Below are positions 34,833 through 60,400 of a DNA stretch of 64,000 nt, one piece after another. The position numbers and the translations under genes are program-made. Location: contig JBBHKE010000491.1 of assembly GCA_037447655.1 (NCBI GenBank), positions 62,001-126,000 of the forward strand, read 5' to 3'. Under the pieces are notes generated by a model. It was given only the letters and a program-made list of their open reading frames with translations. It searched no databases and had not been told where the DNA came from. The number at the start of each line of letters is the position of its first letter. The first letter of the stretch is position 1. This DNA comes from Zygnema cylindricum (Eukaryota; Streptophyta; Zygnematophyceae; Zygnematales; Zygnemataceae).

Positions 34833-35730
34833 TGTTAAAAAGAGGTAATTAATAGTTCACTTCTATAGTTTAGTTAGAATGTAAAGAGAGAGAAAGAGAG
34901 AACCAAAGGCACGCCATGGCTGCTGCGTCATTTAGGAGGGAGAATGAAATAGAAGGTACTTTACTATTTGTAGCAAAATACTGCCTCAAGCCGCATTTAA
35001 ACCGTGGTCTACGGAATACTACTTAGACACTAGCATTATCTATTAAGGCACTAACGAAACGATATACGTATTACGTTTCACGCATATTTATCTATTTGTT
35101 AAACGGGCTAATTTGTAGCAGACTAACGAAAACACGATTAATTAATTCATACATGGAAGCAATCGAAGCTGCATAAATACAAATGATCGGACAGCCACAA
35201 TTACAGCCGCCACCCGCAATAAACTTTCGGCTGCCTTTGGGGATAGTGTCACGCGACGCCACGTGGAACCATACTATTGAATATCAGAGAAGATGGGAGG
35301 AGGAACCATGGCTCCCGTTTTGATAAGCGTCACTTTGAAAGCCATGTCGTACAATGGTCGTACAATAAGTACATCGCCTAATGTACCTTCTTGTACTATA
35401 TAGTGTTTCTATTGGACTAGGGTTCAGTAGTAGGCAGTCGTAAGTAGGCAGACCAGGACTTAGTGAAATTTAGGTACCTCTCTCTAAGAGAGCTTGTAAC
35501 TATAAAGGTCATCTTTGACCAACCATAACTTAATGCTCAAGGGAGCAAATTCAGTGATTCTTTTTGCGTTTGACTCAAGGGAGTCTTGTCCTCATAGGGG
35601 TGAGGGTGGTCAATATATTTGTGTGCCAGGGCGGCGCTTATTCAGCAGGAAATTAGAAGAGGCAAATATTATCCTACAAGCTATACATAGGCTGCTCATT
35701 CTCTAGGTCAATGGAGACGACAGAATTGCA
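34833..35730 (+). repeat. RE6 3' LTR, 898 bp
   Basis: Partner of 23086-23984. tRNA-like block at 34988-35056, hairpin 3 intact near 35591-35606, last 20 bases start ATGGAGACGACAG. Followed by the duplication GCAGC. Confidence 0.92.
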
Positions 35731-35735
35731 GCAGC

Positions 35736-36166
35736 CAAAGGTCCTTCTATTATACACTAGTAGGCAACAAAGTTTTCAATCGATGTGAAACGCCTAACTT
35801 TGATCTTACCTCATAAATGCTCTGCCCGTCCATTGGGCCTGTACTAAAATCCTACTGACAGCTAATAGCAAGATCTACCAGACAATCCCAAAGGTTGCGT
35901 GTCGTTCCACATTGTACCCATTTGCTAGAGCTAGATAGAACGGATGCCAAGTAATGGAGCCAACAACTTTGCACTGGACTAACTCCGCCGTTTGACCTCC
36001 GTTTAAGGTGAACTAAAGTGCGTAGTGCTCTAAGGTGAAAATACAAAGATCTAATTTGGCTGGTTGTCCTCCCTTTCTCTGTACGCTGGCATCCGTACGA
36101 GGTGGGATGAGGCCGCAGAACTTGAAGGAGTGCAAATGTGCAGAAGATGCACACGAGCTTAACAGT
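35736..36166. other. Unassigned, host sequence right of RE6
   Basis: Continuation of 23085. No conserved protein blocks in six frames; nothing recognised. Confidence 0.4.
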
Positions 36167-36420: not shown

Positions 36421-36645
36421 TTAGCTGCCAAATTCGCAGTCCTTATAGAACCACGGATTTGCGGGTTGAGAGCGTGGCTCCTTATTTAGCGGTAGGCAGC
36501 AGTCATGCCACCCTTGGTGACAGTATTCACACATCAACAGGTTGTCGGGTACGGAGGACACATCGCATGCAGAGGAACAAGAGGGCGGTATGCAAAGTAA
36601 GTGAGGTGGATAGTGGGTTCGTCCTCTATCCTTCGTAGATGGCAA
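36421..36645 (-). pseudogene. GY1 C-terminal PHD-type zinc finger
   Basis: CSSACDVSSVPDNLLMCEYC, then HQGWHDCCL and NPWFYKDCE, give the C-x3-C, MCEYC, WHxxC and W-F-x-x-D-C pattern of a Cys4-His-Cys3 PHD finger, with the usual hydrophobic L-M before the second Cys pair and Trp-His before the sixth ligand. One of the last two Cys is replaced or shifted. PHD fingers read histone H3 tails; at the end of an integrase they could steer insertion, as chromodomains do in chromoviruses (inference). The frame ends in TAA at 36421, about 50 bases before the LTR. Confidence 0.75.
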
Positions 36646-37800
36646 GGGGCCACATTGATATGATTTTCTTTAATTTCGCGGTCATCTTTCCCTTTCAAGA
36701 TAAGAACCCTTTTGTTAGAGACCTCCACTACTTTCAGAATCACTCATCTGGCCGAGATGTGCAAAGTATCCTTCTTTTGTTGCATGCGATACAAAAAATC
36801 CCCGGGCACGAATCGCCGTTGCCGAGGGAAATAATTACCGCTCCGGCGTTGGGAATACAAAAGCTGATCCTTGTGTTGAGCAGCCTGTAAATTGCCCATA
36901 ACCACAGGTATATCCCGGTGAATTACCTTGGCCCTGTCGCCAATTTGTTTCTCTGCTGTCCCCCGGTTGTCCATCTTCGGAACCACAACCGCCTGAGCGA
37001 ATACAGCTCCACGTAGGATGGGATGTCGGCCGAAGAGAATGAAGTAAGGGCTATAGGAGTGGAGAGATACCTGCCAGCTGAACATGTATCCTATGGCAAT
37101 CCAAGGCATCCGTCTGTCCCATTCCCCCAAATCCTCTTCCACTGCATATTTACGTAGTGACTGCTTCACTATTTGTACGCACTTCTCGGCCAAGCCGTCG
37201 GCTTAGGGGTGGTCTCGGCTGGTCAACCGGTGGTCAATGAGGCCCTTCTCCAAAATGTTAAAGAATTCTCCGGCAAATTTGGACCCCTGATCCATCAAAA
37301 ATTCGGCAGCTTGTCCAAATTGGGACAACACTCTCTACAAGAATGCATATGCGATTGCTTTAGACTCCTTTCGGGGCAAAACCACCAATTCTATCCATTT
37401 GGAGAAATGTTGAATCATTACCAGAACAAAACGATTTCCCCTGCGGCTGGTTGGAAGTGGTCCCAATAGACCCAGTGACCATCTGTAAAACATCCCTTGG
37501 ATAGGGTGTGAGTGAAGTTCCCTTCCACCCTTTCTGTCAAAGACAGCTTTCACTCGGTCACAAGAAGGGCACGTGTGCACCACGTGGTTCACTTGGGCTC
37601 GCAAACCATGCCACCAGTACGACCCTGTGACCAGTGAGGCGGTCCGTTTCTGTCCGAAGTGCCCACATTGCTGGTGAAGAGAAACAATGAGGGTTTCTTG
37701 ATATGCCAAAGGAGGAACCACTTTCCTCGTCACATCGGCCCATTTTCGGAGAAAAATGCCTCGATCCCATTCATACGCCGCCATTTCGGTCTGAACACGG
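36534..37800 (-). pseudogene. GY1 integrase
   Basis: Frame 37784-37335: zinc finger with LHQQCGHFG (His pair) and CPSC (Cys pair), then the core start where the first catalytic Asp reads Gly (RWSLGLLGPL). The second block LMDQGSKFAGEF (about 37290-37255) keeps its Asp; a TAG interrupts RDHP-ADGLAEK near 37205. Frame 37193-36744 carries EKCVQIVKQSLRKYAVE, WIAIGY and SPYFILFGRHP. The frame 36743-36534 adds an SH3-like tail, VLKVVEVSNKRVLILKGKD to INVAPCHL, before the PHD finger in another frame. Inactive. Confidence 0.86.
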
Positions 37801-37829
37801 GAGAAGTGAATTTTGGCTAAGTGGGGAAG

Positions 37830-38642
37830 AGAGGAGCCTTTCAGGATGGACTAAAGGGAATCGGTATAATTCCAAATATCCTTGCAGCCGGCTCCAATGG
37901 GAGCCTGCCCCTCGACTTATGCTGCAAAAGTTGACAATTCCCCTTCAACACGAGGCAGCCAAATGAAGGCAAAGGAAGCCCGGATAAGTCCCACGCTAAG
38001 CTCCAAGTCTTCATCGTGTGTAGCGCCGGAAGAGTCTCTGGTGGAAGGGTATGGATTCTTCCTGATTCTGCATTCCCATGAATCTCCCCTGCTCGGTGGA
38101 TGATGTTGAAATCGTATTCCTGCAAGATGAGAACCCCTCTGGCCAGCTTGCGAGTCAACTTACTGTTCTCCATTATCCATTTGAGGGGCTGGTGATCTGT
38201 AAAAAAGGTGAAGTGTACTCTATGGAGGTAAGGATTGAAATGATGGATTGCCCATAGTGCAGCGAGTAATTCCCCTTGATAACTGCAATAATTCCCCTCA
38301 GCTCTGTTATTGTTCTAGCTTCCGTATGCCACTACATACTCCGCCCCTGCATTGTCTAATTGAGCCACCACTACTCGAAATCCGAACCTGCTCCAATCAG
38401 TATAAAGGAGGAAAGGTCATGGGTGACTGTGCATCCGGAGCACAAGATGCTGCTTGAGGAAATCTTTCAGGAATCGGAAAGCGATCTGGTGTTCTTCAGC
38501 CCAGTGCCGCTTCTGGTCCTTTCGCAATAACTGATTCAATGGGAAGGCGTGGCTATTGAATTCGAGAATAAACCTTTGGTAATAGTTGGCCAGTCCCAGA
38601 AAAGTGCGAAAGGTCGAAATGTCCTGCGGGGGTCAAAGGGCG
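37830..38642 (-). pseudogene. GY1 RNase H and RT connection
   Basis: Minus sense reads TFLGLANYYQRFILEFNSHA, LLRKDQKRHWAEEHQIAF, FLLYTDWSRFGFRVVVAQLD (RNase H first Asp in YTDWS, near 38400), AEGNYCSYQGELLAALWAIH (Glu), and TDHQPLKWIMENSKLTRKLA with EYDFNIIHRAGEIHGNAE. This is the Ty3/gypsy type RNase H. Stops include a TGA near 38429 and a TAG near 38320. The join to RT is interrupted by the solo LTR at 38648. Confidence 0.85.
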
Positions 38643-38647
38643 TCAAG

Positions 38648-39833
38648 TGAAACTCTGAGACCTCCATTGGCCCTCAGAGTATGCAGATCCAAAAGAAGAT
38701 AATCTAGATAGTGCCGACTCGAAGTTGATATAAACCCAAGTGACTGACCCCTTGACAGTCAAAACCCCAATTTAGATTCACCCCTGTGAAATAACACTTT
38801 CTGTGTGCTCAGTTCCACCACAGAATGCAAAGTTAGAATATGAGATTTGGACACATTCACCCACTTTGACTTTCCCTTAGAAATGCAGCCACCCTGGCAG
38901 ACAAAAAACTCTGGCGGACTACACCCCTGTGTAGCGTGGACTCCTCTAAGTCAGCAGCAAAAACAATCACTGAAAATGGTCAAGTAAATTGATTGTTATG
39001 GCTGGCCAAAGTTTGCCATTTATACAAGGTGCTCTCTGGGAGAGGGGCCGCTACCACCTAAATTTTCTAAGTCCTATCTCTCTCTAAAACTTTATCTACT
39101 GACGTACGGCACCAATCGAATTACTGTGTCGTACATAAAAGTACAGGTGCCGATGTACTTTCTGTACGGCCATCGTACGACATGGCCAAAATGTCGACAC
39201 ATATCATATCCGGATTTGTTCTCGTAATCTTCGAAGTTGCCACGATCCAATGTCATTGTACCACGTGTCATCCTACGTGGCGATGACCGCAAACCGCCGC
39301 GATTCTCTTCCGCGATCTGGGCATCCTTCCCGGCCATACGATTAAAACTAGATTTTAATCGTAGCCGTCATAGATACTTGCGCGGTATTTGTTTCGCTAT
39401 CGAAACGAAATGCGCGATATCTGTTTCTTTTTTGTACCTTACTCCGTACTCTACATTAATGAATCTATGCATCCCGAGTAAAGTTTCAGTTGAATGAATT
39501 AGTCTACGTGTAAGCCTATATATAATTATCAAACTATATATCATTTAACAACAGTCTAAAGTAAACGGTTAAGGCTAACGTCTAATTTGACTGTCGGCAG
39601 GTACTCGGATCAAATCTCCGGTTCGTCATATATTTTAGGTAACTCTATCAAGACTTGCCTTCCTCTCCTCTTTGGACAGCCTAGGCAACCATGGATCTAA
39701 CTCCTCCTCAAGTCTTCAGTGACTGCGACAAGTCTGGGGACTTGAGTGAAGATTTAGAGGCAAGCTGTCAGTGTCTCTTCTTTTGTCTTTTATTTTACAA
39801 TCTCTAGACCTAGAAAATACTTAAATTTCAACA
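38648..39833 (-). repeat. Solo LTR of RE1-like family, 1186 bp, inside GY1
   Basis: TGAAACTCTGAG at 38648, TTTCAACA ending at 39833, perfect duplication TCAAG at 38643-38647 and 39834-39838, no interior: the product of LTR-LTR recombination. It carries GTAC at 39104, 39131, 39141, 39155, 39164 and 39175 and hairpins (sense) GACT-TAGAGG-AGTC, CTACAC-AGGG-GTGTAG (38934-38919) and GCC-AGGGT-GGC. The gag start ATGGAGGTCTCAG is preserved. Confidence 0.92.
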
Positions 39834-39838
39834 TCAAG

Positions 39839-40650
39839 GGCTGCCACCTTAACCATGTGGGGACCCACTGTTTAGGAGTCACCTCATGACCCACATAAAT
39901 GATTTTTTGCACCATTAAGATGCCCTTCCCTGGATGGCACTTCAAGGCCGTCGCTTGAAGAGCCCAGAGAACGATCTGTATATGCTCCAAGTGTTCCTCG
40001 AATGTCTTGGAAAAAATAATCGCATCATGGATGTAACACGGTGCGCAATCGATTCACAAGAGGGCCTCGTGCATGGCCTGTTCGAATTTGGGAGGTGCAT
40101 TTTTGAGGCCAAATGGCATGTATAGCCATTCATACAACCTAGATCTTGCCCAAAAAGTCGTCCTCTCGCGATGCTTTGGCTCCATTGTAATCTGGTGGAA
40201 TCCATTCTTCATGTCCAACGTGGAGTAAATGGTGGCCCCAGCCAGAGAGTGGAAGATTTTTTCAGGAGTAGGCATGCGATAACGGTCGGAGACAGTTGCT
40301 GCGTTGAGCATCTGATAATCCCCACACATCCAGAAATCTACAGTTTTCCCAAATAAGTCTTTCTTTGGTAGGAGCACTATTGGAGAGGCAAACCCATGTA
40401 GCCGTGTACTTCGTGCACCAACCTCGCGTCCACAAAAGTCTTTACCTTTGCGGTGATGAACTCCTTCTCTTTGAAGTTGAGAGGGTACTGCTTCTGCTAA
40501 ACAGTCCCCCTATTGTCGGTCAAGTCAATGCAAAAAGGGGTCCCCTTATAGATCCCTACATCTGTGTCATACCAAGATAACACTTGCCTTTTCTCCTCTA
40601 ACAGCCTGGATTGCCGCGCTTTCTGCTGTGGGTCTAGCTATTCCCCTAGA
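39839..40650 (-). pseudogene. GY1 reverse transcriptase
   Basis: Frame 40377-40054: LLPKKDLFGKTVDFWMCGDYQMLNAATV, ATIYSTLDMKNGFHQITM (first catalytic Asp in STLDMKNGFHQ), and MPFGLKNAPPKFEQAMHEALL. After a stop the catalytic box reads CYIHDAIIFSKTFEEHLEHI (about 40040-39985): the first Asp of the Y-x-D-D motif is His, so it is inactive. KCHPGKGILMVQKIIYVGHEVT follows to the TCAAG where the solo LTR inserted. Ty3/gypsy RT type. Confidence 0.88.
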
Positions 40651-40959
40651 GTCCAGTCCATCTTTTGGATTCCACTACAGCCTATGTTCCTAGTGGTCGA
40701 CCCCAGAGGGAGATGTCGAATTTAAGCTCAACCTCTGGATCTGTCCCTTGCTCGGCTGCAAAAACGCTACTAATGATAGCTTCTTGTTATGATCCTCTGC
40801 TCCCCCATACTGAGGAAACTCTTGGTTGTAATTTCATGAATTTTTCCCTTCTTGCCTGTCTCCCCCCCTCAAGCTGTAGTGTAGCTGGCATGGCCAAAAA
40901 TTGTCGAGCTTGAAGGTATGTTGCTTGTGACTTTTGGGACAAGTGGCTACAGAATGTTA

Positions 40960-42010
40960 GAGAATGTTTCACCACCTAGGAAATTGCTTTCAAATCCATA
41001 CTTTGCTCGATTAAACTGCGCCTTTTTGAAGCTAAGACCCTTGGAGCTGTTGTGGTTGCCTGCCAAATCCCATTGCTTATTCCCGTTCCTCAATACTTGG
41101 TGATGTTCACGTAGCGCCTTGACTATGGAATATCATCCATGGTGTGCCTTTCCAATAAACATGGCTTTTAGGAAATGATACCAGGGTTAGTAGAGCCTTT
41201 TGTGGATTTCAAAGACGATTGCAACATAAGAATGGTGCTCAGTCGGCTTTGGTCACGGGGATGGCCATTCGCCCTGGTCCAAGAATCTGTTGAACTATGA
41301 TGTAGGGATCCGAAACCTGTGTTTTAAACAATTGTTGGAGGATGGGAGGAGGAACCAAGTTGGTCCAATATGCTCGAACTCTATGGGCTCTTGATCCGAT
41401 CTGAGCTGCATCAAAAACTATGGGAGTCCCCAAAACCTTGGTCACTTGGTTCCAGTTATTGACCACCTGTTTCCTTTTATCGTCTGTGGGGTGAACATTT
41501 TCCAAGACGTACCCAAATGGCGTGTCCTAACGTCCGTGTAACTTTGTTATCAGTCACGTCATCTGAAAGAATGTTCTACTACGGACATCTTGGTGTCTCG
41601 TGCCCTGTCCTGCTTACGAATACGCGTGGCGCGGCCATCCAGCGATCACCTGATCTACCCTTCCAAGCTTCTCCAAATGTGACTTCCTGATGTTGTCCAC
41701 ATTCTGGGGAAGAGTGCGGTGAGAGTTAGACACGGCAAACACTAAAAGTTGCTCAGGGTTGTTATTGGTGCAGCTGTTGCAGTCGATACTCACTGACTGC
41801 ACGGGCTTCCGGGTCAATCTCGACTGCCAAGTACGCTTCTATCCGGTATTCAGATATTAGAACGGCTTCCAGGTCGGACCTAATCCCGGAAAATAATGAT
41901 ATAATTATGACTCCTGAAGGCAAGATCTCTTGTGACACCACTTGTGAATTGAAATCCTTCCCTTTGTTAGGAACCTTTGGAAGTTTTGACCAGATAACCT
42001 TTGCTGTTTC
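40960..42010 (-). pseudogene. GY1 C5 cytosine DNA methyltransferase domain
   Basis: Motifs of 5-methylcytosine transferases occur in order between protease and RT. Motif I/II: IISLFSGIRSDLEAVL then AYLAVEIDPEARAV (41910-41800), the cofactor pocket. Motif IV: GRVDQVIAGWPRHAYS (41665-41618), where the catalytic Cys of P-C-Q is Arg. Motif VI: ENV (41501-41493). Motif VIII: DAAQIGSRAHRVRAYWTNL (about 41410-41355). A conserved EERE-AMGF block (41100-41066, with a TAA inside) and motif X, IEQSMDLKA (41009-40986), close it. The length, about 350 codons, suits a bare catalytic domain. Motifs I and IV lie in different frames. Decayed, but the ancestral element evidently encoded a methyltransferase. 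Confidence 0.85.
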
Positions 42011-42342
42011 AATTAATAAAGCGGCAAAGCTCCTGTCCACTTACCGCCGAAGTGTGGTTATCTGTACCAATCTGTTCTGATACTCCCTTTCCAACCGCTT
42101 GGAAATAGGGAATTGCTAGATGGAATTAGCGATATCGGTGGAGCCTTCGAATAGCTCCGAAGTGGTGGATGCAACGTACACGGGATAACATCCTGTCACC
42201 AAAAACAATTGTTTTTCCCCGATTCCATAAATCTAACGAGACCACCACTTTGGTGCCCTCAGGATTCTCAGGATCTAAAAACTGTAAATTGTTCTTTCCA
42301 AACGCTCAATTTCATGTTCAATCTTGTCCACGTAGCCATACC

Positions 42343-43063
42343 CTACAAAAATTCAAATTGCTTACCTTCCACCACAAGGAAAGGAAGTTGAATTTGTAGG
42401 CGTTGTCCCGCGTCATTCGCAAATTCATTTTCCATTGCTTTTATCATGCCAAATACTGGTTGGCTACCATTGCTGACCGTACTCAGGCATATGTCACTTG
42501 GGCTGATTTTTGGCCTGAGTATTTTGGGCATTTGTTGCAATACTGAGGTGGTTAAGAGGTTTCGGAGTGATCCGCAAACCACCAATGCATCGTGATACCC
42601 GCCATATCCATTAAATTTATAATTTCCGGTCTTGTAAAGAATAAGAGCCACCGACAAGGCCTTATAATCTTTATCTGCCATAAAAAATTTTGGTTCCGCC
42701 GACATGAACACTATCTTTTGTAGTTTTGCCAACGCGACTCTTTCCCTCGTGGTGTGAATCTCTTCCCTCAGGGCATGAATGAGGGTTTCTTCAAGCAAAT
42801 TGTGAGAGGAAGTTAGCGTTTTGATGTGCATGAGTGCGTAAGGCATCAGGTGCCGTACTAGCATAACTGCCAGTTTTGAGGAAAGAGGGTGAGCTTTGGG
42901 TGATAAAATGGGTGAGTCCTCGTCTTCTGATTTCTCCTCTATCCTCCTACGTGCTTCCTCACATTCTCTGTAACAGTTTCCCATTGGAGGTGTAAGTGGC
43001 GGGTGTGTCCGTGATCTTTTAGCCAAGTATCGATCGAATCATTCCTAATCTGTTTCGGTTGTT
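42343..43063 (-). pseudogene. GY1 end of Gag and aspartic protease
   Basis: A 227-codon frame (43026-42343). The first half is charged and helical (CEEARRRIEEKSEDED, HTTRERVALAKLQ). Then GGYHDALVVCGSLRNLLTTSVLQQM resembles a retropepsin in which the active-site Asp (D-C-G or D-T-G) reads Val, followed by PVFGMIKAM and QLPFLVVEGKQFEFLL, the beta strands before the C-terminal L-L-G motif. The frame ends where a TAG follows FEFL. Upstream it joins 62150 on the other side of RE8. Confidence 0.72.
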
Positions 43064-43068
43064 GAAGG

Positions 43069-43990
43069 TATTGGTTTTTGAAAGCTTAAGTCTCAGCAAA
43101 TTTATAGGACGGCGGGAAAATAGATCTATAGGGACACGCGTCGTCACTCGAAGCACAATGAAAGTTTTAATGGTACCGACACCTGTATTCTAACAGCGCA
43201 GCTGTGACGCAAATGGAACAAGCGCAGCTTCGGTTTTTTTTGATATGGTCCGTACGGACCAACGCAGTTGCTACGCAACAAGACAAACGCAACTGCGACT
43301 ATTTCAAGTATGGGACAACGCAGCTGCGGCGAAGGTGCGGATATTCAAATATGATCTGGAACTGGACTCCACTGCTACGGTTGAACAGAATCGAGTCGCA
43401 AACGAGATTCACAGATGACTTACTTACAGATGTCTTTACAACAATTGAGTGCACATATCCGGAAAAACAGAACTAGCCGGCGGCGAGTATTTGTACAATC
43501 ACTTAGTACAAATTCTCAGTAATGTGATTGTACAGTGGTAAATTAGTATTAGCGTGATTATAAGTAATTAGATCTTAGTGGTAGTTTTGTGTTTTGGACA
43601 TATCTCTTAGGAACACCTGTATCGGTGGTGCAGCATTATGTAATAGGACAACTAAAAGTAGATACTCACTAAGAGTATAAGAGTTAGGACTTAGAATGTT
43701 TTTTGTATCCAGACTTCCAAGTAGTAAACTGCAGACATTTTTTGGGAAACTTTTGAGTATTATATCTTGAGTGTTGTCTGGTCAATTCAGATGAAACTTT
43801 AAGAGTTGTCACTGTTTGTGCTAATCAACATTGTGATAAAGTTTTGTGAAGTTTGGATGCTTTTATACGATTTGGTGAGCACGTGAAGATTGTTGTTAGA
43901 TAGAATTCTTGATAGCTTTTGAGAGTGTATCATGTCTACTTCTACTACTACTGTTGCTCCTCCACCTGCAACGGTGGTCGTAGAACAACA
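43069..43990 (+). repeat. RE8 5' LTR, 922 bp
   Basis: Begins TATTGGTTTTTGAAAGC (TG changed to TA in both copies) and ends GAACAACA. U3 at 43195-43345 repeats the words ACGCAGTTGCTACGCAA, ACGCAACTGCGAC and ACGCAGCTGCGGCG, shared with the RE5 LTR. The gag ATG is at 43931, 60 bases before the LTR end. Confidence 0.9.
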
Positions 43991-44592
43991 GGTTATGGGT
44001 CTGTCATCAAGAATTCCTATCTTTTCCGGAAAAAAAGCATGTCAACTAGGCGGATATGGTGGAGACACATTTTGAGAATGTCGATCTCTTGGACATATTG
44101 GATGGTTCTCTGTATGAATCTGATCCGTCATGGTCTAAGAAAAATACGCGAGCTCGTTTTATTCTTAAATTCTGTATATATGAGGACTTAGATATGTCTT
44201 GGATAAAAATGAAAAAAACAATTGATATCTGGAATTCTCTTAAAAATGATTATGAAAAAGCAAATGTCCAGGAAGAACTATTATTGGCTGGAAAAACATG
44301 GGACTATAAGTACACTAGCAATACAATAGCTGAATATTCTAACAGGTTTCGCATCCTTGTAGATGCACATGTTTTTGCAGGTGGGGAGTTTCCTCTGTTT
44401 CAGCAAGCACCGTTGCTCATGAGGGGTCTCCCTCGTAGTATGAAAGGAGCATTTGATATGCTCAAACAAAAAAATAAAGCTAGTTGGACTTTACAGTTAG
44501 CTATAAATAGTTTGCTAGAAGAAGAAGCTACACCTAATATACTCAATGTTGAGCAAGTAGAGTCTTTAAATTCAGACTTTGAGAGGAAAGAA
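43931..44592 (+). pseudogene. gag: RE8 Gag, part before RE9
   Basis: MSTSTTTVAPPPATVVVEQQVMGLSSRIPIFSG starts in the LTR; a frame change follows near 44035. A long open stretch (44056-44592) has VETHFENVDLLDILDGSLYES, YKYTSNTIAEYSNRFRILVDAHVFAGGEF, LLMRGLPRSMKGAFDML and LEEEATPNILN. It ends at a TAG, which lies in the target duplication of RE9 (TAGTT versus CAATT on the other side) and is best read as a mutated Gln codon. Gag continues at 51045 with the zinc knuckle. Confidence 0.84.
43991..44005 (+). promoter_or_regulatory. RE8 primer-binding site, decayed
   Basis: GGTTATGGGTCTGTC; the nine bases next to the LTR match the half-tRNA form, the rest do not. Confidence 0.6.
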
Positions 44593-44597
44593 TAGTT

Positions 44598-45654
44598 CGA
44601 AACTCTGAGACCTCCATAAGTCCTCAGAGTGGACAGCTTCCAAGAAGCCTCTAAGATAACCCTGACCACTTTGTGTATCAGCAAAAACAACTGCCACCCT
44701 GGCAGATAATAACTCTGACCAACTTCACCTTTGTGAAGGTAAGACTCCCTTGAGTCGATAGCAAAAAGAATCTATGAATTTGCTCCCCTGAGCAGTAAGT
44801 TATGGAGGGTCGAAGTTGACCTTTTGTACAGAAGCTCTCTGGGAGAGAGGGTCCTATCTCCTAATTTTTCTAAGTCTTATCTCTCTCTCAAACTCTATCT
44901 ACTGATGTACGGTGCCAATCAGATTAGAGCTCCGTACACAAAAGTACAGCTGCATGTGTACTTTCTGTACGGACACTGTACGACATGGCCTAAATGTCGA
45001 CACGTGGTATGTCCGGATTCGCTCCCTTAATCCTCGGAGATGCCGCCATCCAATGTCATTCCGCCACGTGTCATCCAATGTGGCGATGACCACAAATCGC
45101 TGAAATCCTCTTCTGCGATCTCGGCGTTAATTCCGGCCGTCTGATTAAATTCACATTTAATCGTAGCCGTAATAAATACATGCGCGATATTCGTTTCATT
45201 AAAGAAATAAATGTGCGGTATTGGTTTGTTATCAGTACCGTATTCCGTACTTTTACATTACTGGATCTATGTATCCCGTAAACAGTTACAGTTAAATGAA
45301 TTATCCTACCTGATAATGTTTAATTAATTATCAAACAATATAGTTCTTAACACTAGCTCTAAACCTAACGGCTAAGGCTACTGGCTACCGGCTGTTTGCC
45401 GGCCTGTAGGTACCACGATCAAATCCTATGGCCGGCACATACCTTTTAGTATATAAACCCCTAACTAATATATATTTCCCGTAAACCTCTAGATAGCCTA
45501 AGTAGCCATAACTCTAGCTCCCTCTTCAATTTCTCAATGACTGCGACAAGTTTGAGAGTTGGAGAGAGAAGTTAGAGGTAGACTACGTTGGCTTCTTTCT
45601 ATATTTCTATTAAGACCTAAAAAATACTTAAAAAATGGACCATTAATTTCTACA
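44598..45654 (-). repeat. RE9 3' LTR, 1057 bp
   Basis: Left end CGAAACTCTGAG (TG changed to CG), right end TTTCTACA. Homologous to 50003-51039; it keeps the antisense tRNA-like block (about 45365-45430). Confidence 0.9.
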
Positions 45655-45664
45655 CTCCCCATAT

Positions 45665-46550
45665 TTTCTAGTCAATCTTTAATTTCAAACCACACTTCTC
45701 CTTGCAGAAAATTAGCTTAGGGGAAGGCACAAGTTTGGTCATCATATCTGTTACCATCTCACTATCTGGTCGGTACACTAAACTGATTATTTTGTTTTAT
45801 ACTTTCTCTTTAACAAAGCTGAGTTAGATGTCCATGTGTTTGGCTTTAAAATGATGTTTAGGATTGGCAGAAATAGCGATTGCTGCCTGATTATCACATA
45901 AATTCTTTTGCACACCACTCTTAAGGTAACCAAGCTCACCAAGCAAAGACTTGACCCACATCAATTCTTTTACACCAGAGCAAGAGGCCATATACTCAGC
46001 CTCCATGGAGGACTGAGCAATAACGTTTTACTGTTTGCTACTCCAACAGCAAGCCCCATCACCCACATATAATCCATACCCAAAAGTACATCTCCTCATC
46101 GGAGCATCACCATAACAGGCATCACTCCAAGTAGTGATGTCAGTATTCTCCCAACCTAAATGCAACCATAGATCCCTAGTTCCTATCAAATATCTAAGGA
46201 CTCTCTTAGCTGCCCCCAATCCTTCTTAGTGGGAGCATTTAGACTTCTACTTAGCACTCCTACAGCCGCAGCTAAATCTGGCCGGGTACAATTCCTAAAA
46301 TTGATTAGGCTTCCCACTACTTGCTTGTAAGGAATAGTTTGCATGAACTTCGTTTCTTCAGAGATAATTACTCGCCTAAGACTATGACTCCTTCTTCCTC
46401 AATCCCCTCACATCTGTTCTTCAACTCCATTGGAGTTGTACAACTATTAACTTTATCCAATTGAAATTTTTCAAGCATGTTCCCTATTGCTTCCTTTTGA
46501 GTCAATCTTATAATTTTTCTTTTTCGGTCTCTCTCTACTTGAATTCCCAA
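45665..46550 (-). pseudogene. RE9 RNase H and RT end
   Basis: Minus frames: 46550-46368 (GIQVERDRKRKIIRLTQKEAIGNMLEKFQLDK), the region 46367-46220 with the Y-RQVV-S and N-TRPDLAAAV blocks, 46219-46028 (VLRYLIGTRDLWLHLGWENTDITTWSDACYGDAP, catalytic Asp present) and 46006-45824 (MEAEYMASCSGVKELMWVKSLLGELGY to FKAKHMDI). Ends with CREKCGLKLKID-like sequence at 45665. A stop and shifts separate the pieces. Confidence 0.87.
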
Positions 46551-47167
46551 AATATATTTTCTTCCCCCATATCCTTCATTTCAAATCTCCCTTTAAGATC
46601 AATTTTCAGTTTATTAATTTTTTCCATTGATTTACTTAAAACAAGCAAATCATCAACATAAATTGCAACAAATATAAAACCTTCCTCATCTTCGAAAACA
46701 TAGATTGAGTGATCTGAGCTGATCCAGATATATCCCTGACCAGTAAGAAACTCATCAAGCTTGTTATTCCACTGTCGAGGCGCCTGTTTCAAACCATAAA
46801 GAGATTTAATCAGTCGGCATACCTTACTCTCCACTCCTTCCTCCACAAACCCTTCGGGTTGTCGCATGAAGATCTCCTCTTCCAATTCTCCATACAAAAA
46901 GGCTGTCTTGATGTCCATCTGGTTTACTTCTATGTCTTTCGCTGGTGCCAAGCTGAGAAGTATGCGGACGGAGGGAAATCTGACCACCGAGGCAAAGGTT
47001 TCCTCGTAGTCAATTCCCTCCTTTTGTGTAAATCCCTTTGCCACTAATCGGGCCATGTAGCGCTCGATTGTGTTATTTGAGTTCAATTTTAATTTGAAAA
47101 CCCACTTACAAGAGATTGGTTTTCGGTTAGGTGGACAATCCACCAGCTCCCAAGTATCGGCTGCCAT
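46535..47167 (-). CDS. RE9 reverse transcriptase core (210 codons open)
   Basis: One open frame covers most of the copia RT: VDCPPNRKPISCKWVFKLKLN, KGFTQKEGIDYEETFASVVRFPS, MDIKTAFLYGELEEEIFMRQPEGF, SLYGLKQAPRQWNNKLDEFL, FIFVAIYVDDLLVLSKS (YVDD intact) and FEMKDMGEENIF, after which it leaves frame. The Met is internal to the polyprotein. RT fingers and palm are preserved, RNase H is in other frames, so no full enzyme is made. Confidence 0.88.
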   Translation of the reverse strand: MAADTWELVDCPPNRKPISCKWVFKLKLNSNNTIERYMARLVAKGFTQKEGIDYEETFASVVRFPSVRILLSLAPAKDIEVNQMDIKTAFLYGELEEEIFMRQPEGFVEEGVESKVCRLIKSLYGLKQAPRQWNNKLDEFLTGQGYIWISSDHSIYVFEDEEGFIFVAIYVDDLLVLSKSMEKINKLKIDLKGRFEMKDMGEENIFWEFK

Positions 47168-48305
47168 AATTTAGGCCATCTCCTCATTGATGGTTGTCTT
47201 CCACCGGTTTCTTTCTGGACAAGTCATCGCCTCTCCATAAGTTTGAGGTTCATCTTAATGAGATAGTTTAGTTACCTTGTTATTAACATAATTTTCTAGT
47301 AGTCTTTTGCTACTTCTGCTTCCCCCCTCAAAATCTGAGGCCGGAATAGATGGTTCGCGTGGATTCTTTCGAACAAACTCGACTTCTCCCCTATCCCTTG
47401 ATTCCGAATCAATTTCCACCACGTCTTCCGCTTCGGGTAGAGTTATAACTGGAGTTTCCACAGCCGAGTCCTTTTCGGTGTGATTTGTACCTGCAAGAAT
47501 GTCACCTTCTCTAAAACCTGGATAGTTAGGAAGCTCAAAGTCATCGGATTTTTCTGACTCAAATCTGATTTTTACTGACTTTGTATATTTGAAGGGATCC
47601 ACACACTTTGCTTCATCCATAACTACTAGATGCTTTACTAAGATTATATCTTCCATTTTTAGATCATAAACTCTATATCCTTTAACATCCTCATCATATC
47701 CTAATAAGTATCCTGGTTTTCGTTTAGGATCTAGCTTCTAATTAGACCGATCTGTATCTAGACTGAATACTTGACTGCCGAAAACCTTTAAGTGAGATAT
47801 GTTTCGTTTTCGGCCTGTCCATCTTTCATAAGGTGTTTGATTTTTATAGCTGAAATAAAAACTCTATTTTTGAGGTAATTAGCTAAGTTCGTTGCTTGTG
47901 CCCAAAACAATTTTCCTATCTTCTTATCTGACAACATACTTCTAGCACCATCACTTAGTGTTCTATTTTACCTTTCAGCAACCCCATTCTGTTCCAAGTT
48001 TTCGTGAACTGTCTTTTGGTGTTGGACAGAATCTTCCCTCAGAAAATCCTCAAACAGGTTAGAAGTATACTTTCCACCATTGTCACTCTTTATTCTCTTG
48101 ATTCGAATTTCATGGAGTTTTTCGCTCCATACTTTATATTGTCTAAATAAATCCTGAGCTTCTGACTTGTTTTTCAAAAAATACACTCGGGAATACCGAG
48201 ACCAATCATCAGTGATAGTCATCATAAATCTCTTCCCCCCCCGGTGAGGGCAATTTAGCCGGTCCCCAAATATCTGTGTGTACTAGATCAAGAATTTTTT
48301 CTCCC
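47168..48305 (-). pseudogene. RE9 integrase core and linker
   Basis: 48225-47968 carries MTITDDWSRYSRVYFLKNKSEA, IKSDNGGKYTSN and a Glu in NLEQNGVAER. After a stop, pieces of the C-terminal part (WTGRKRNISHLKVFGSQVF near 47780-47840, KPGYLLGYDEDVKGYRVYDLK near 47650-47720) appear in other frames, followed by the 133-codon linker frame 47656-47255 (KHLVVMDEAKCVDPFKYTK and an acidic stretch). Confidence 0.85.
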
Positions 48306-48905
48306 TTATAGGTGGATGGTTTTAGGAAAGGGTAATCTTTGTGTTTTACCTTGAGCACATCCACTACAATCACTTATATTATCACTCTCACTAAACTTAA
48401 TCCCTTCCACCACTCCCATCTTTTTCATCTCTCTTAACTTATCTAGATTTACATGCCCAAGCCTCTTATGCCACATCATAATATCATAAACACCAGCATA
48501 ATAAAGCTTCTTCTTTTCATTACTTAAAACCAGCCTAAACATCTCATAGCTACCTTTCTCAACAATGAAATAGACATCCTCCTCAAAACTAGCAGTAAAG
48601 ACTCCTTCCCTAATGTTAGTAAAAAAACCCTTATCATCTAATACGGATGTAGAGATGAGGTTTCTGTTCATCTCCGGAAAAAACAATACATCGGAGAATG
48701 TTACTATTGATGTTTTTCCTTTTAGTGACACTTTCAAATCTACCAATCCTACAAGAGTAGTGGTGAGTATCCTCCTATCCCATACTCTATCTCTACGGTG
48801 GGAATATTTCTTATCTTAGTGAACAGGTGCCTATCCTTACACATGTGCATGGAGGCACCTGAATCTACAATCCTGCCTGCTTCACCTTTTAATCCAATGT
48901 AAGCA
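48306..48905 (-). pseudogene. RE9 protease and integrase zinc finger
   Basis: The protease site reads IVDSGASMHMCKD (about 48885-48835). A shift near 48780 leads to the 146-codon frame 48746-48306: VDLKVSLKGKTSIVTFSDVLFFPEMNRNLISTSVLDD, then MMWHKRLGHVNLDKLREMKK and CSGCAQGK, the complete HHCC zinc finger. It ends before the first catalytic Asp. Confidence 0.86.
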
Positions 48906-48910
48906 CATTT

Positions 48911-50022
48911 CTACCTTCGTGGAATTTTGACCTCGTTTTTCGCCTCCAACTCCTCATCTAAAAGGAGCTCATCGTCCTCGTCCTCGGATTCCGTCTCATG
49001 TACCTGTGTCACAAGTGCCTTTTTCTTTCCTCTCGGGGTACCACCGGTTTTCCCCTCCTTTAACCGAAGCTCAGTTAGCTTAGTGCACTCTACCAGATAG
49101 TTTCCAAGTTTCTTACAAAAATGACATAAACCTTTGGGAGCCCTTGGTCCGAACTTGTCGGTCTGATTTTTCTGCTCCCTCCCCCAATAGTTTCGACCGG
49201 TTTCCGGGAATCCTTGTTCCTCCAATCGGTCGCAGTTGCTAAGGCTTGGCCACTCTTTCCTCCCGTTCGGATCTGAATCGTATTCTCCCGAAAGAGAATC
49301 ATTCCTACCACTGAGTTCGATATCCACCTTGAGTTCGGCAAGTCCTGCACACGGTTGACTATGTTCTCGAACTCATCGGGTAACTTCATCAGTAAACAGT
49401 AAACCTTTTCTTTTTCACTAAAAACTTTTCCCGCACTCTCTAGCTCCATGAAGAGTGTAGCTTGCTCATTGCAAAAATCCAACATCTTCCCCTTTTTGTA
49501 TACATACTCCTTAACTTTCTGATCAGCCAACTGTTGTTGCTGAATTCTACCACCTCGATACATCTTTATGAGAGCCATCCAAAGATCGGATGCCCTTTCT
49601 ACCTGCAAATGGGGACATGTAAGTCTTTGAGTGAGATGGCGTAGGATGAAGTGCTTTGCCGCCATATTGTTGAAGTCCCAAGTTTGAGTATCATTCTCCT
49701 CGTTCCTCGGAATAGGTGACATGAATGCCGAACCAGTTGCTATTGGTGTGGTCGCCTCTTGCTCTTTTCCTTTGTCCACCACCTCTTTTTCTTTTGTTTC
49801 TTCCGTTGAAGGTAGATCCTCTTTCCTAGTGAATCTGCTTCCTCCAAACCGTGGAGCAATTCCAAGACTTGATGGACGCCCCAACCGTCCACTCACTATC
49901 CCCAAAACCTTTTTTCGCATAGAGCTCCTTTTTATCATACAATCCTAGTATATGAAGCCAGTTCCATTAAAGATTCGTACCCAAGAGGGTGGGCCTATAA
50001 CCTGAAACTTTAAGACCTCCAT
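48911..50022 (-). pseudogene. gag: RE9 Gag
   Basis: A 282-codon frame (49938-49090) carries the capsid: GSAFMSPIPRNEENDTQTWDFNNMAAKHFILRHLTQ, QQQLADQKVKEYVYKKGKMLDFCNE and CLLMKLPDEFENIVNRVQD. A second frame (49327-48911) has zinc knuckle CHFCKKLGNYLVEC, with His changed to Asn so zinc binding is probably lost, and the acidic tail leading to protease. The start in the LTR is intact (MEVLKFQVIGPP at 50022) but a stop follows near 49945. Confidence 0.86.
49988..50002 (-). promoter_or_regulatory. RE9 primer-binding site
   Basis: GGTTATAGGCCCACC on the minus strand, 14 of 15; ATG has become ATA. Confidence 0.8.
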
Positions 50023-51039
50023 AAGTCCTTAGGGTGGACAGCTTCCAAGAAGCCTTTACGATAATCCTGACCCCTTTGTGTTTCAGCAAAAACAATTGCC
50101 ACCCTGGCAGACAATAACTCTGACCAACTTCACCCTTGTGAAGGCAAGACTCTTGTGAGTCGATAGCAAAAAGAATCTCTAAATTTGCTCCCCTGAGCAG
50201 TAAGTTATGGAGGGTCAAAGTTGACCTTTTGTACAAAAGCTCTTTGGGAGAGAGGGTCCTATCTCCTAATTTTTCTAAGTCCTATCTCTCTCACAAACTC
50301 TATGTACTGATGTACGGAGCCAATCAGATTACAACTTTGTACACAAAAGTACAGGTGCCGGTGTACTTTTTGTACGGACACTGTACGACATGGCCTAATT
50401 GTCGACACGTGGTATGTCCGGATTCGCTCTTTTAATCCTCGGAGATGCCGCGATCCAATGTCATTCCGCCACGTGTCATCTGATGTGGCGATGACCACAA
50501 ACCGCCGTAATCCTCTTCCGCGATCTCGGCGTTAATTTCGGCCGTCCGATTAAATTCACATTTAATCGTAGCCGTAATAAATACATGCGCGATATTCGTT
50601 TCATTAAAGAAATAAATGCGCGGTATTGGTTTCTTATCCGTACCGTAATCCGTACTTTTACATTACTGGATCTATGTATCCCGTAAACAGTTACAGTTAA
50701 ATGAATAATCCTACCTGATAATGTTTAATTAATTATTAAACTATATAGTACTTAACACTAGCTCTAGACCTAACGGCTAAGGCTACCGGCTACCGGATGT
50801 CTGCCAGCCGGTAGGTACCAGGTTCAAATCCTGTAAATAAACCCCTAACTAATATATATTTCGCGTAAACCTCTGGATAGCCTAGGTAGCCATGGCTCTA
50901 GCTCCCTCTACAATTTCTCAGTGACTGCAACAAGTTTGAGAGTTAGAGAGAGAAGTTAGAGGTAGACTGCCTCGGCTTCTATCTATATTTTTATTTAGAC
51001 CTAGAAAATACTTAAAAAAGTGGACCATTAATTTCTACA
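50003..51039 (-). repeat. RE9 5' LTR, 1037 bp
   Basis: TGAAACTTTAAG to TTTCTACA. Hairpins in sense: TGCTC-AGGG-GAGCA, GACTC-ACAA-GAGTC, CTTCAC-AAGG-GTGAAG and TGCCA-GGG-TGGCA (50205-50090). tRNA-like block near 50765-50835 with B-box GGTTCAAATCC. Confidence 0.9.
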
Positions 51040-51044
51040 CAATT

Positions 51045-52360
51045 TAATCAGCAAAGAAATAAGTCTAATCAATTTAAACAGTTTAATCTAGGTGGAAATA
51101 GACAATCCAACAATACATGTTTTTATTGTAGTGAGAGAGGTCATGGATACAAATTTTTTCCTAAGCTTAAAAAAGCTAACATTACAGGCCTATACAGACC
51201 GGGATGGCAACAAAGTCAATTTTACAAAAATTTCACGGGGCCTACACCTCGTGGAAATGCACTGTTTTGAGCGTCTTCATCACTCCAGGATGAGACTCTG
51301 ACATTTTCTAAGGAGGATGACACAGATCTATTCACTATGGCGGCAGCGATGGAGGGCGCGAAAGACCCTGGATGGATAATGGATACTGAAGCGTCAGCCC
51401 ACATGTGCTGGAACAAAGCCATCTTCAAAAATCTGAAAACAATGCCGGAGAAAAATATTTATTAAGCTTGTGGAATGAGTGTTCAGACTCGTGTTGTGGG
51501 TGATGTGTCTTTGCCAGTGGATGTGGAGGGCAAAGAAACTGAAAGGACTCTTCACAATGTCTTATTTGTGCCTGACTTTAAGAAAAATATGTTTTCTATG
51601 TCCTTGGTAGAGAGTAAAGGCTTTGAGATTAATTTGAAAAATAGTAGGCAGGTTGTTAGCAAAAATGGCAAATTCGCAGTTACACGTACTAGAGATAATA
51701 GCAAGATGTACCGAATGGATATGGCTAATACCAAGCAGAATGATGTTCTGTACTCCAGTGTTTTGCATTCAGATGAGGTTTGGCATAAAAGATTAGGCCA
51801 TTTAAACTAAGATTGTTTGAGAAAAAAGATCTTTGCTGGAAAAATATAGGGTGTCTCAATCACAGATCCGCCAATCAAAACATGTGATGGCTGCGCTTTG
51901 GGCAAAATCCACAGACTACCATTTCCTAAAGAGACTGAGCATTCGTCCACTATACTTTTACAACAAATCCATTCGGATGTTTTTGGTCCTGCGAAGGTTC
52001 CATCTGCCGAGGGAATGAAATATATGGTCACTTTCACATATGATTTCTCCAGGTTTTTAAAAGTTTACTTCATGAAGGAGAAGAGTGAAGAATTTGGTCA
52101 CTTCAAGCACTATAAAGCATATGTTGAAAAACTTCATGATTAACCTATTTTGCAGCTTAGATCGGACAATGGTGGTGAATATACATCGAAAGAATTTGAA
52201 ATCTTTTTACTCAACCAAGGTATAAGTAATCTACTGACAGTTCCATATTCACCGGAACAAAATTGGGTGTCAGAAAGACTAAATGAAACTCTCACGGAGA
52301 GCTCTACGTCGATGCTCGGAGATAAAAATGTGGATCCAAAATTCTGGGTTTAGGCTCTAA
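51045..52360 (+). pseudogene. RE8 Gag end, protease and integrase
   Basis: QFNQQRNKSNQFKQFNLGG then CFYCSERGHGYKFFP, a zinc knuckle whose last Cys is Phe. Protease near 51370 reads GWIMDTEASAHMC, so the Gly of D-S/T-G is Glu and the enzyme is dead. Frame 51475-51810 continues to HSDEVWHKRLGHLN; after a TAA the zinc finger Cys pair (CDGCALGK) and KIHRLPFPKETEH follow. The core keeps all three acidic residues: IHSDVFGPAK, LRSDNGGEYTS and SPEQNWVSER. Stops at 51810, 52141 and 52351. Confidence 0.87.
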
Positions 52361-53055
52361 ATTGTGCAGTTTATATTAAGAATAGGATAGGATCAAAATC
52401 GGTAAAATTTACTCCTTACGAGATCTGGACAAATAGCAAACTTGATGTTAGCCATTTCAAAGTCTTTGGTAGTAAATTTTTTATCTTAGATACATCTACG
52501 TACAGATGGAAAATGGAACTAAAGGGATTATTAGGTATTTTGTTAGGATATGATGATCACTCAAAAGGTTACAAAGTCTTTGTGTTTTACAGGCAAAAAA
52601 TAGTTGTAGCAAGGAATATCATTGTCAAAGATAAACTAGACTCGATAGATTTATTTCAAATGATGGAGCAACAAAAGCAGCAAAAAGTACAAGTGTATGT
52701 CATTTTAGATTGCATGCAAGAAGTTGTCCCTCAGGTGCAACAGTCTTCAATGGTGACTACGGAATCAGACTCTCTCCAACTTCCTCAACAAGTTCAGTTC
52801 CAACCAAACCAACAACAGTCAATACACGCGGATCGCAACCAACGCAATCAGCTACACACTGATCGCAACCAGCGCAGCCAACGCAATCAGCGCAATGCAC
52901 GACATCCGACAATCTCAGCCTCAAAATTTCTAGGGGGGAAGAAGATCCAGCAGCCGCCTTTTAGCAAGCTCTCACTTTGCCTACTCGCCAGCCTTAGGGG
53001 ATCCCTTGACCATCTAGGAGGCCTTCTCATCACCAGAGCAAAATCACTGGATTGA
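52361..53055 (+). pseudogene. RE8 integrase C-terminus and Gln-rich linker
   Basis: LDVSHFKVFGSKFFILDTS, LLGYDDHSKGYKVFVFYRQK and VARNIIVKDKLDSIDLFQ match the copia integrase end. The linker (52660-52915) is Gln/Asn/Arg-rich, with a ~30-bp internal repeat giving HADRNQRNQ / HTDRNQRSQ. The frame leaves register near 52950, where ASKFLGGKKIQQ is followed by a shifted tail. Confidence 0.82.
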
Positions 53056-53071
53056 GGCAGCAAACGATGAA

Positions 53072-53761
53072 ATGAAGTTGATCATCGAGGCCCAAACATG
53101 GGAGCTTGTGGAACTTCCTCCAGACCGAAAGGCGATCGGCATTAAATGGGTATTCAAGGTGAAGTTAAATCGCGATAACACCATTGAACGATATAAGGCT
53201 AGACTTGTGGCAAAGGGTTTTAATCAGAAGGAAGGAATCGATTTTGAAGAAACATTCTCTCCGGTTGTAAGATTTCTGACAGATAGGATTTTGTTGTCCC
53301 TAGTTGCTATAGAGGATATTGAAATACATCACATGGATGTAAAGACAACATTTTTGCATGGAGAACTAGAGGAGACCATTTACATGCAGCAGCCTAAAAA
53401 GTATGCAGAACTAGGAAAAGAGCACTTAGTATGCAAGTTGCTAAAATCTTTGTACGGCCTAAAACAGGCCCCCAGACAGTGGAATATGAAGCTTGATGAA
53501 TTCCTAACTAGCCCAGGATTTCAAAGGAAAAGTTGTGATCACTCTGTCTACGTTCTAAAGGGTGAAAATGTGATAGTATATATAGCAGTGTATGTAAATG
53601 ATTTACTATTAATCAGTAAATCAATGGCTGAAATCAACAAAATCAAAACTACTTTAAACTCACGATTCGAGATGAAAGATCTTCGTGAGGCAAAATACAT
53701 TTTGGGTATTCAGGTAGAAAGGGACAAAAATAAGAAAGTAATAAAATTGACTCAAAAATAG
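53072..53761 (+). CDS. RE8 reverse transcriptase (229 codons open)
   Basis: [109 protein letters not shown] and YIAVYVNDLLLISKS, then AKYILGIQVERDKNKKVIKLTQK with a TAG at 53759. Nearly the whole palm and fingers are in one frame, but the catalytic Y-V-D-D reads Y-V-N-D, so activity would be lost. It is clearly diverged from the RE1/RE9 family. Confidence 0.9.
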   Translation: MKLIIEAQTWELVELPPDRKAIGIKWVFKVKLNRDNTIERYKARLVAKGFNQKEGIDFEETFSPVVRFLTDRILLSLVAIEDIEIHHMDVKTTFLHGELEETIYMQQPKKYAELGKEHLVCKLLKSLYGLKQAPRQWNMKLDEFLTSPGFQRKSCDHSVYVLKGENVIVYIAVYVNDLLLISKSMAEINKIKTTLNSRFEMKDLREAKYILGIQVERDKNKKVIKLTQK

Positions 53762-54577
53762 GCTATTGGAAACATGTTAGATGCGTATGGAATGCAGGGG
53801 GCAAAAGGATGTCTAAATCCAATGGAATATCGGCAGAAGTTAGAGGGAGAAAAGACAGAACCACGTGTCATTGTTAGCGAGTATTCAGAGTCAGGGGAGA
53901 ATGATTCTATGACACAAATACCTTACAGACAGATAGTGGGAAGCTTAATATATTTCATAAACTGTACCCGTCCTGACATTGTTGCAACAGTCAGGGTACT
54001 GAGCAGGAGTCTAATGAATCCAAGAAAATCTGATTTTGATGCAGCAAAGAGAGTCTTAAGATATTTGGCAGGGACAAAAGACCTCGAACTCACACTAGGC
54101 AGAGGAGAAGTGAAGCTGCAAACGTGGAGTGATGCAAGCTATGGCGAAATGCCAAGCCGAAAATCCACCACAGGATTCGTTTTGCAGATTGGGAACGGAA
54201 CCTGCTGCAGGAGTAGCAAACCTCAAAAGGTTACAGCTCAGTCGACAATGGAATAAAAATATATGGTGGTAAGCTCGGCCCTCAAAGAACTCTTATAGGT
54301 AAAATCCATGTTGTAAGAACTAGGATACATGCAGGTTGGGCCACAAGTGATCAGGTGTGATAACCACGCTGCCATTGCCATTTCCTCTAACCGACGCCAC
54401 CACTTCAAGAGTAAGCACATAGATGAACGATTACACTTTGTAAGAGAAAAAGTGTTCTCTAGGGTGATCAAATTATGTTATCTGCCAGATGCAAGAATGG
54501 TTGCTGATATGCTTACTAAAGCTCTTCCTGCTCCCAAGCTGAACTATTGTAAGAATGCAGTAGGATTGGGTGAATAG
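53762..54577 (+). pseudogene. RE8 RT thumb and RNase H
   Basis: 53774-54256: MLDAYGMQGAKGCLNPMEYRQKL, IPYRQIVGSLIYFINCTRPDIVATVRVLSRSL, VLRYLAGTKDLELTLG, LQTWSDASYGEMP (RNase H Asp) and SSKPQKVTAQSTME, then a TAA where Glu-Tyr is expected. 54329-54577 ends the domain: IRCDNHAAIAISSNRRHHFKSKHIDERLHFVREKV to TKALPAPKLNYCKNAVGLGE. Downstream, 54578-54629 is a short AT-rich 3' region up to RE10. Confidence 0.88.
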
Positions 54578-54634
54578 GTGATTAGCTCCACTACGATAGT
54601 GCAATGCTTAAATAGCCCAAAATTAGGATATAGT

Positions 54635-55665: not shown

Positions 55666-55678
55666 CTCTCTTTATTTT

Positions 55679-56431: not shown

Positions 56432-56434
56432 TTT

Positions 56435-60011: not shown

Positions 60012-60015
60012 AACC
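60001..60015 (-). promoter_or_regulatory. RE10 primer-binding site
   Basis: GGTTATGGGCCCACC on the minus strand, 15 of 15, next to the LTR end. Confidence 0.85.
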
Positions 60016-60325: not shown

Positions 60326-60400
60326 GTACGGCACCAATCATAAGAGTGTATCGTACATAATGGTACATGTGCCGATGTACTTTGTGTACAGCCATTGTAC
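60326..60400 (-). promoter_or_regulatory. RE10 GTAC array in U3
   Basis: Six GTAC motifs at the same steps as in RE1 and the solo LTR although the bases between them differ. Confidence 0.6.

Follow-up and report, generated by a model that had tools for sequence, protein, structure and literature searches.

We analyzed a 64,000-nucleotide stretch of the Zygnema cylindricum genome (the window; GenBank assembly GCA_037447655.1, contig JBBHKE010000491.1, positions 62,001 to 126,000 of the forward strand) and found on its minus strand a decayed DNMT3-like cytosine-5 (C5) DNA methyltransferase domain, lodged between the protease and the reverse transcriptase (RT) of a Ty3/gypsy retrotransposon. The domain is spread over three frame pieces (41920-41756, 41781-41059, and 41062-40928), with frameshifts near 41770 and 41060. 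A preliminary description of this locus had proposed a C5 methyltransferase here, and each of the motifs that it quoted is present, in the order given, across the three pieces; collinear tblastn matches agree with its placement between protease and RT of a gypsy Pol. It located the domain correctly and set the lower bound at 40960, short of the actual end at 40928. Its observations that the catalytic Cys of motif IV reads Arg and that the frame is broken also hold, and with internal stops, two frameshifts, and Arg for the catalytic Cys, the window copy is dead. Given this replacement, we regard it as a dead descendant of a family and not as an enzyme.

Identity of the domain

Read in one frame with its 7 stops as X, the interval 41760-41041 (minus) matches the Pfam profile DNA_methylase (PF00145) at an E value of 4e-6 (26.9 bits versus a cut-off of 22), confirming the C5 methyltransferase identity. 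In a sequence search of the PDB with the same translation, all 29 entries at E≤1 were DNMT3A, 3B, or 3C (best, 4.2e-6). Searched singly, the three open fragments matched no Pfam family at E≤1; against the PDB, one reached DNMT3A at E=0.028 and the other two hit unrelated chains only (E, 0.6 to 1.3). A family profile, built from 48 distinct related proteins (individually labeled P0002, P0003, and so on), scored 239.9 bits on the main piece and 38.4 and 10.9 bits on the other two and found no further match at E≤10 in the rest of the window, and the best score in 20 Markov-shuffled control windows was 1.2 bits. The window copy agrees with the family at 33 of 42 near-invariant columns. CpG loss as a mark peculiar to the element was rejected, as the observed/expected ratio is 0.66 in the domain and in the whole window alike; TpG is higher in the domain (1.34 versus 1.08 for the window).

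The domain is DNMT3-like by sequence and, as judged from the model of a relative, by predicted fold. When a profile of ten relatives was searched against the PDB, the top places went to 29 DNMT3 sequences (E, 5e-23 to 3e-16), followed by plant DRM (1e-13), HaeIII (2e-10), HhaI (5e-10), and DNMT2-type enzymes (4e-9); no DNMT1 or chromomethylase appeared by name among the 57 PDB matches listed. The AlphaFold model of the P0003 domain, a relative and not the window copy, had a mean predicted local distance difference test score of 87.5, and the best 50 of the 224 PDB matches to it at E≤0.001 were all DNMT3 (5e-18 to 1e-15). The linear motif order ruled out a DRM-type domain, in which the motifs are rearranged and the profile match (4-136 only) lies at the C-terminal part of the chain. 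Cellular DNMT3 shares the catalytic fold and the linear motif order with the element domain, which differs in being embedded in Pol.

Anatomy of the gypsy element

The window holds Gag, protease, RT, RNase H, and integrase in that order, with integrase after RT (Table 1), as seen in collinear tblastn matches of P0003 and P0004 and in Pfam matches to RT, RNase H, and H2C2. P0004 aligns on the minus strand with gag (63029-62769 and 62409-62218), protease (42675-42277), methyltransferase (41905-40979), and RT (40664-40003). A large copia element, inside which two further copia elements are apparently nested, splits gag from the protease. Once it is removed, about 460 bases separate the two, close to the 134 residues (∼400 bases) in P0004, a similar spacing that fits one element. 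A second copia-derived insertion, beyond RT, interrupts the P0003 match. The only long terminal repeat (LTR) of the element in the window is a truncated 3′ LTR; the 5′ end is absent from the window.

Table 1. Parts of the methyltransferase-bearing gypsy element and the copia sequences that interrupt it (window coordinates)
Feature	Position	Strand	Evidence
Gag part, beyond the nested copia element	62218..63029	minus	tblastn matches to two parts of P0004, residues 170-257 (E=6e-7) and residues 393-463 (E=5e-4); protease and methyltransferase follow collinearly
Copia element splitting gypsy between gag and protease	43068..62150	plus	LTR-like ends 43068-43991 and 61226-62150, 91% alike; copia gag and RVT_2
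Retropepsin (protease) region	42277..42675	minus	tblastn of P0004 residues 598-729, E=7e-12
UAG between protease and methyltransferase	42116..42118	minus	Context UAG CAA UUC; probable readthrough site; TAG in 28/29 aligned copies
Decayed DNMT3-like C5 methyltransferase domain	40928..41920	minus	Three frame pieces, covering positions 5-336 of the 339 in the family profile; canonical motif order, I to X
Reverse transcriptase	39859..40664	minus	RVT_1 E=5e-12 on 40054-40509; tblastn of P0003 and P0004
Mostly copia-type LTR sequence inserted between RT and RNase H	38654..39858	minus	38888-39826 ∼72% alike to copia LTRs elsewhere in the window
RNase H region	38066..38653	minus	tblastn of P0003 residues 748-943, 61% identity; RT_RNaseH E=2.4e-16
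Integrase with H2C2 zinc-binding domain	36558..38102	minus	tblastn of P0003, 53% identity, E=2e-164; Integrase_H2C2 E=3.5e-14
PHD finger, C-terminal end of Pol, weak	36436..36573	minus	PHD E=0.0017, 18.7 bits, under cut-off 24; P0033 residues 1729-1755 at 36573-36493
Start of 3′ LTR, truncated	35723..36164	minus	78% alike to another host copy's LTR (444 bp)

Elsewhere in the window, 3′-end and LTR pieces of the same gypsy family (22121-22326 and 22727-23085, minus) form a second relict, and at least six copia-type coding stretches occur on both strands of positions 1-64000, some of them apparently nested. No nontransposon gene was recognized among the scanned open reading frames (ORFs) of the window, and a tRNA search of it found none. 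The published genome of Zygnema cf. cylindricum SAG 698-1a (359.8 Mb) is reported at 29.8% Copia and 5.9% Gypsy (PMC9915684), and the window is likewise Copia-rich.

Copies in the host genome

A search of the host assembly (352.8 Mb, 2689 contigs) with the methyltransferase domain of a relative scored at least 119 matches out of 1776 candidates, and because the weakest of these already had an E value of 7e-86, the true number of copies is probably higher. By hand count, 28 of the 119 matches lacked an internal stop, and 23 of these 28 began at residue 9 or earlier and ended at residue 326 or later of 337; the earlier suspicion that intact relatives persist in this genome was thus correct. The PF00145 profile scored 123 matches of 782 candidates, all above the cut-off, including one fetched locus (L039) with no match to the retrotransposon family, which may be a cellular gene. 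Window DNA used as the query recovered the window itself and 39 other loci at 79 to 84% identity (40 scored of 497 candidates).

The methyltransferase is under purifying selection. Among 30 fetched loci, window included, the whole domain was open in six, and the pairwise ratio of nonsynonymous to synonymous substitution rates (dN/dS) was 0.11 to 0.25 in 13 of their 15 pairs; the other two pairs were identical, leaving four distinct sequences. In a quick tree of 13 host loci and the window (34 loci aligned), the window and three other decayed copies share a long-branched subgroup. This lies within a group of 12 made up of host copies only, which joins P0002 and P0003. The two LTRs of one host copy are 98.1% alike over 1509 bp, and in a second copy the LTRs are 97.3% alike over 788 bp; a target-site duplication, sought at the single copy with the 98.1% pair, gave no match.

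Two pairs of host copies (C1974/C1920 and C1662/C507) carry identical methyltransferase DNA in surroundings that are only 94 to 95% alike; a possible cause is gene conversion or template switching. Upstream of the gag match, host copies have long open frames of up to 984 amino acids (e.g., L077:2610-5561 minus and L073:1883-3922 plus), to which Pfam assigned no family.

The preliminary description had taken the host for a land plant, which we found unsupported; judged by genome content, a zygnematophyte alga is the likelier host and a land plant unlikely. GRAS matches occur on 12 contigs of the host genome (27 matches of 28 candidates) and in none of 14 control genomes; the origin of GRAS has been placed in the ancestor of Zygnematophyceae and land plants (PMC9915684), so these matches indicate a member of either group. 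The Dirigent profile gave no candidate in the host genome and no match in the control genomes either.

Relatives and two architectures

The window frame, used as a protein query, found four matches, the closest of which (48% identical) carries RT and methyltransferase in one protein; a short window fragment found no candidate, the candidates being limited by query length. P0003 as the query recovered 46 proteins, itself included. Host labels are attached to 10 of the 48 relatives (five Marchantia polymorpha, four Closterium, and one Mesvir1 [Mesostigma]), the rest being unlabeled, and no Klebsormidium-labeled protein was found among the P0003-search matches, many of which carry no host name. 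In the five Marchantia polymorpha proteins, one of which (P0024) lacks motif IV, the domain sits after the protease. The idea of a land-plant copy therefore survives in these liverwort members and not in the window itself.

Catalytic residues are strongly conserved: each of the 44 relatives that are not gapped at the position has the Cys (4 of 48 are gapped), the motif VI Glu occurs in 46 of 46 (2 gapped), and all 48 have the motif VIII Arg. To our knowledge, the Pro that precedes the catalytic Cys is nearly invariant in C5 methyltransferases. Here the residue is Pro in 24 of 45 relatives and Glu in 21, with at least five changes on the tree. Glu is found in relatives including P0016, P0019, P0020, P0023, and P0026-P0028, as well as at host loci L036 and L037, which represent a second host lineage near P0016 and P0019.

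The tree of the domain divides according to the position of the domain in the polyprotein. With 48 relatives and the window, it splits into 20 and 29 rows (support, 100/99). In the group of 20, RT or RNase H, where shown, precedes the methyltransferase and integrase, where shown, comes after it; among the 28 relatives of the other group, the protease, where seen, precedes it and RT, where seen, comes after. Fragmentary rows are less informative: RT is visible in 13 rows of the group of 20 and in 10 of the 28 relatives. The window falls in the protease-RT group with P0002, P0003, and P0004 (support, 100/99). A PHD finger was found in 16 of the 48 relatives, many of the others being incomplete. 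Between P0002 and P0003, identity is 74% in the methyltransferase, 43% in the linker, and 86% in RT.

An unbroken element of the same kind lies on CADCWO010000201.1 (L029), a circular 9.3-kb contig with overlapping ends that was binned with a cyanobacterium. An open gag-protease-methyltransferase ORF is followed by TAG CAA TCA and then, in the same frame, by RT-RNase H-integrase-PHD; the gag start sits at the opposite end of the circular contig. L029 is probably a stray eukaryotic element in the cyanobacterial bin. In eight of eight comparisons of L029 with chosen relatives, the methyltransferase was better conserved than gag, the protease, and the tail of ORF1. The scan of bacterial genomes gave four loci, three of them partial matches in Streptomyces. 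Viral contigs scanned with P0003 yielded no match, and those scanned with the query A2 yielded 28 loci, all partial matches with 28 to 50% identity in the best segment.

A conserved UAG between protease and methyltransferase

The family polyprotein has the order Gag, protease, UAG, DNMT3-like methyltransferase, RT, RNase H, integrase, and PHD finger. From 30 host loci, one of which gave no alignment, TAG was found in 28 of 29 aligned copies, window included, and TAGCAATTC in 23 of 29. With one copy as the reference, 27 of the 28 others retained the UAG triplet, compared with a mean conservation of 0.686 per triplet; 97 of 998 triplets were equally well kept, which puts UAG in the best tenth without making it unique. 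Protease and methyltransferase share a frame in five of six host copies. The retention of UAG across host copies makes it look programmed and not a product of decay, and since other copies of the family keep the UAG at 42118, we rejected the reading of every stop in the window copy as decay.

We conclude from this conservation and from the sequence context that the UAG at 42118-42116 is probably a programmed readthrough stop. CAR-YYA following the stop is the readthrough signal of tobacco mosaic virus type sites. We take TAG CAA TCA, as found in L029, to fit this signal and TAG CAA TTC, as found in the host copies, to fit all but its last base.

Comparison with known elements

The kind of element is already known. 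De Mendoza et al. (2018; PMC5890265) described KnitGypsy-Dnmt3 of Klebsormidium nitens and two kinds from Symbiodinium, which bears out the statement in the preliminary description that such elements had been reported in charophytes and dinoflagellates. KnitGypsy-Dnmt3 and the window family are both Ty3/gypsy elements of streptophytes whose Pol ORF includes a Dnmt3-type domain; in both, the domain lacks DRM-like rearrangement and is under purifying selection (Ka/Ks below 0.2 and dN/dS of 0.11 to 0.25, respectively). Compared by description only, the repeats of KnitGypsy-Dnmt3 are DIRS-like according to the Fig. 4 legend, whereas one host copy here has an ordinary LTR pair. Its capture was placed in the K. 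nitens lineage, whereas relatives of the window family occur in Mesostigma, Closterium, and Marchantia. The present family also has a UAG ahead of the methyltransferase, a PHD finger, and a high copy number; in the text of PMC5890265, the word “readthrough” is absent and “stop codon” occurs once, for premature stops in Symbiodinium LINEs (long interspersed nuclear elements).

SymbioDIRS-Dnmt3 and SymbioLINE-Dnmt are, like the window family, retrotransposon-borne methyltransferases at high copy number, but they belong to other element classes (DIRS, with a tyrosine recombinase, and LINE, respectively), and the authors judged the gypsy case to be independent (PMC5890265). Ordinary plant Ty3/gypsy elements have the same Gag, protease, RT, RNase H, and integrase order without an extra domain (PMC6317226), and the main text of that survey uses neither the term methyltransferase nor the term PHD. 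According to a later paper (PMC6338049, 2019), land plants, such as tracheophytes, lack methylase-bearing transposons; the Marchantia proteins contradict the broad land-plant absence as worded there, not the absence from tracheophytes. Another (PMC12344493) places DNMT3 in Copia and DIRS elements of streptophytes and dinoflagellates, citing the 2018 paper, which says Gypsy. In the titles, opening lines of abstracts, and passages searched, which excluded most subscription papers, we found KnitGypsy in PMC5890265 only and no report of a land-plant copy. What is new here is the breadth of the family in streptophytes, with liverwort members, the two architectures separated by the tree, and the conserved UAG.

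Possible role of the methyltransferase

As the best overall explanation, in which we have about even confidence, we propose a polyprotein in which the UAG sets the dose of a methyltransferase that marks the element's own cDNA. Most translation would end at the UAG and yield Gag-protease, and a minority would read through, carrying the methyltransferase into the particle at approximately the dose of RT. Inside the particle, the enzyme would methylate the cDNA, probably at CG, before integration. New copies would then arrive already bearing the host's own mark of silent repeats, and this may shield them from mechanisms that sense unmethylated DNA and keep damage to the host low. In yeast, de novo CG methylation by retrotransposon DNMTs has been shown, and self-methylation of cDNA was suggested by the same authors (PMC5890265).

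Several observations weigh against this proposal. Readthrough is deduced from conservation and context alone. As the UAG of L029 follows the methyltransferase instead of preceding it, the dose argument is not the same for every lineage. Most of the scored host copies are broken, with internal stops in 91 of the 119 scored matches. From the 2018 study, a LINE-borne DNMT did not methylate DNA, and elements lacking a DNMT transpose in the same genomes (PMC5890265).

Of the rivals, we consider it unlikely that the enzyme works in trans on the chromatin of the host once the particle has entered, with the PHD finger perhaps guiding it; such action would change methylation near insertions or genome-wide. 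The PHD finger that follows integrase, weak in the window and present in a third of the relatives (16/48), fits such a role, and host-wide effects in Symbiodinium are discussed in PMC5890265, but the methyltransferase lies inside the polyprotein and is not a free protein. Slightly less likely again is a domain that no longer methylates DNA and instead binds RNA or DNA, serves as a structural part of the particle, or methylates RNA. The Glu that replaces Pro in nearly half of the relatives (21/45), through repeated changes on the tree, would suit a function of this sort, and RNA methylation was raised for LINE DNMTs in the available text of PMC5890265. Against it, every relative with a residue at the position concerned retains the Cys, the motif VI Glu, or the motif VIII Arg expected there, and 26 of 34 host rows read PCQ (C1042 is counted twice, and two rows are the second lineage with ECQ). 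A chance match or an unrelated domain, to which the short ORFs without a Pfam match and the two with unrelated PDB chains might point, was rejected and has a negligible probability in view of the significant profile match, the silent shuffled controls, and more than 100 relatives in the same genome with E values below 1e-85.

On the origin of the family, we tentatively suggest, with somewhat less than even confidence, that a gypsy lineage acquired a DNMT3 gene early in the history of green plants and that selection has maintained it since, as far as the liverworts. It would later have come to occupy two places in the polyprotein, between protease and RT and between RNase H and integrase, and in the protease-RT group it would lie just before or after a leaky UAG, with its dose relative to Gag set by readthrough.

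DNA methylation is a main weapon of plants against transposons, and a transposon that preserves a methyltransferase of its own is a paradox. With more than 100 related copies in graded decay, the Zygnema genome allows one to ask whether new insertions arrive methylated and, in the same genome, whether element-borne methyltransferases shape the methylome of a host close to the origin of land plants.
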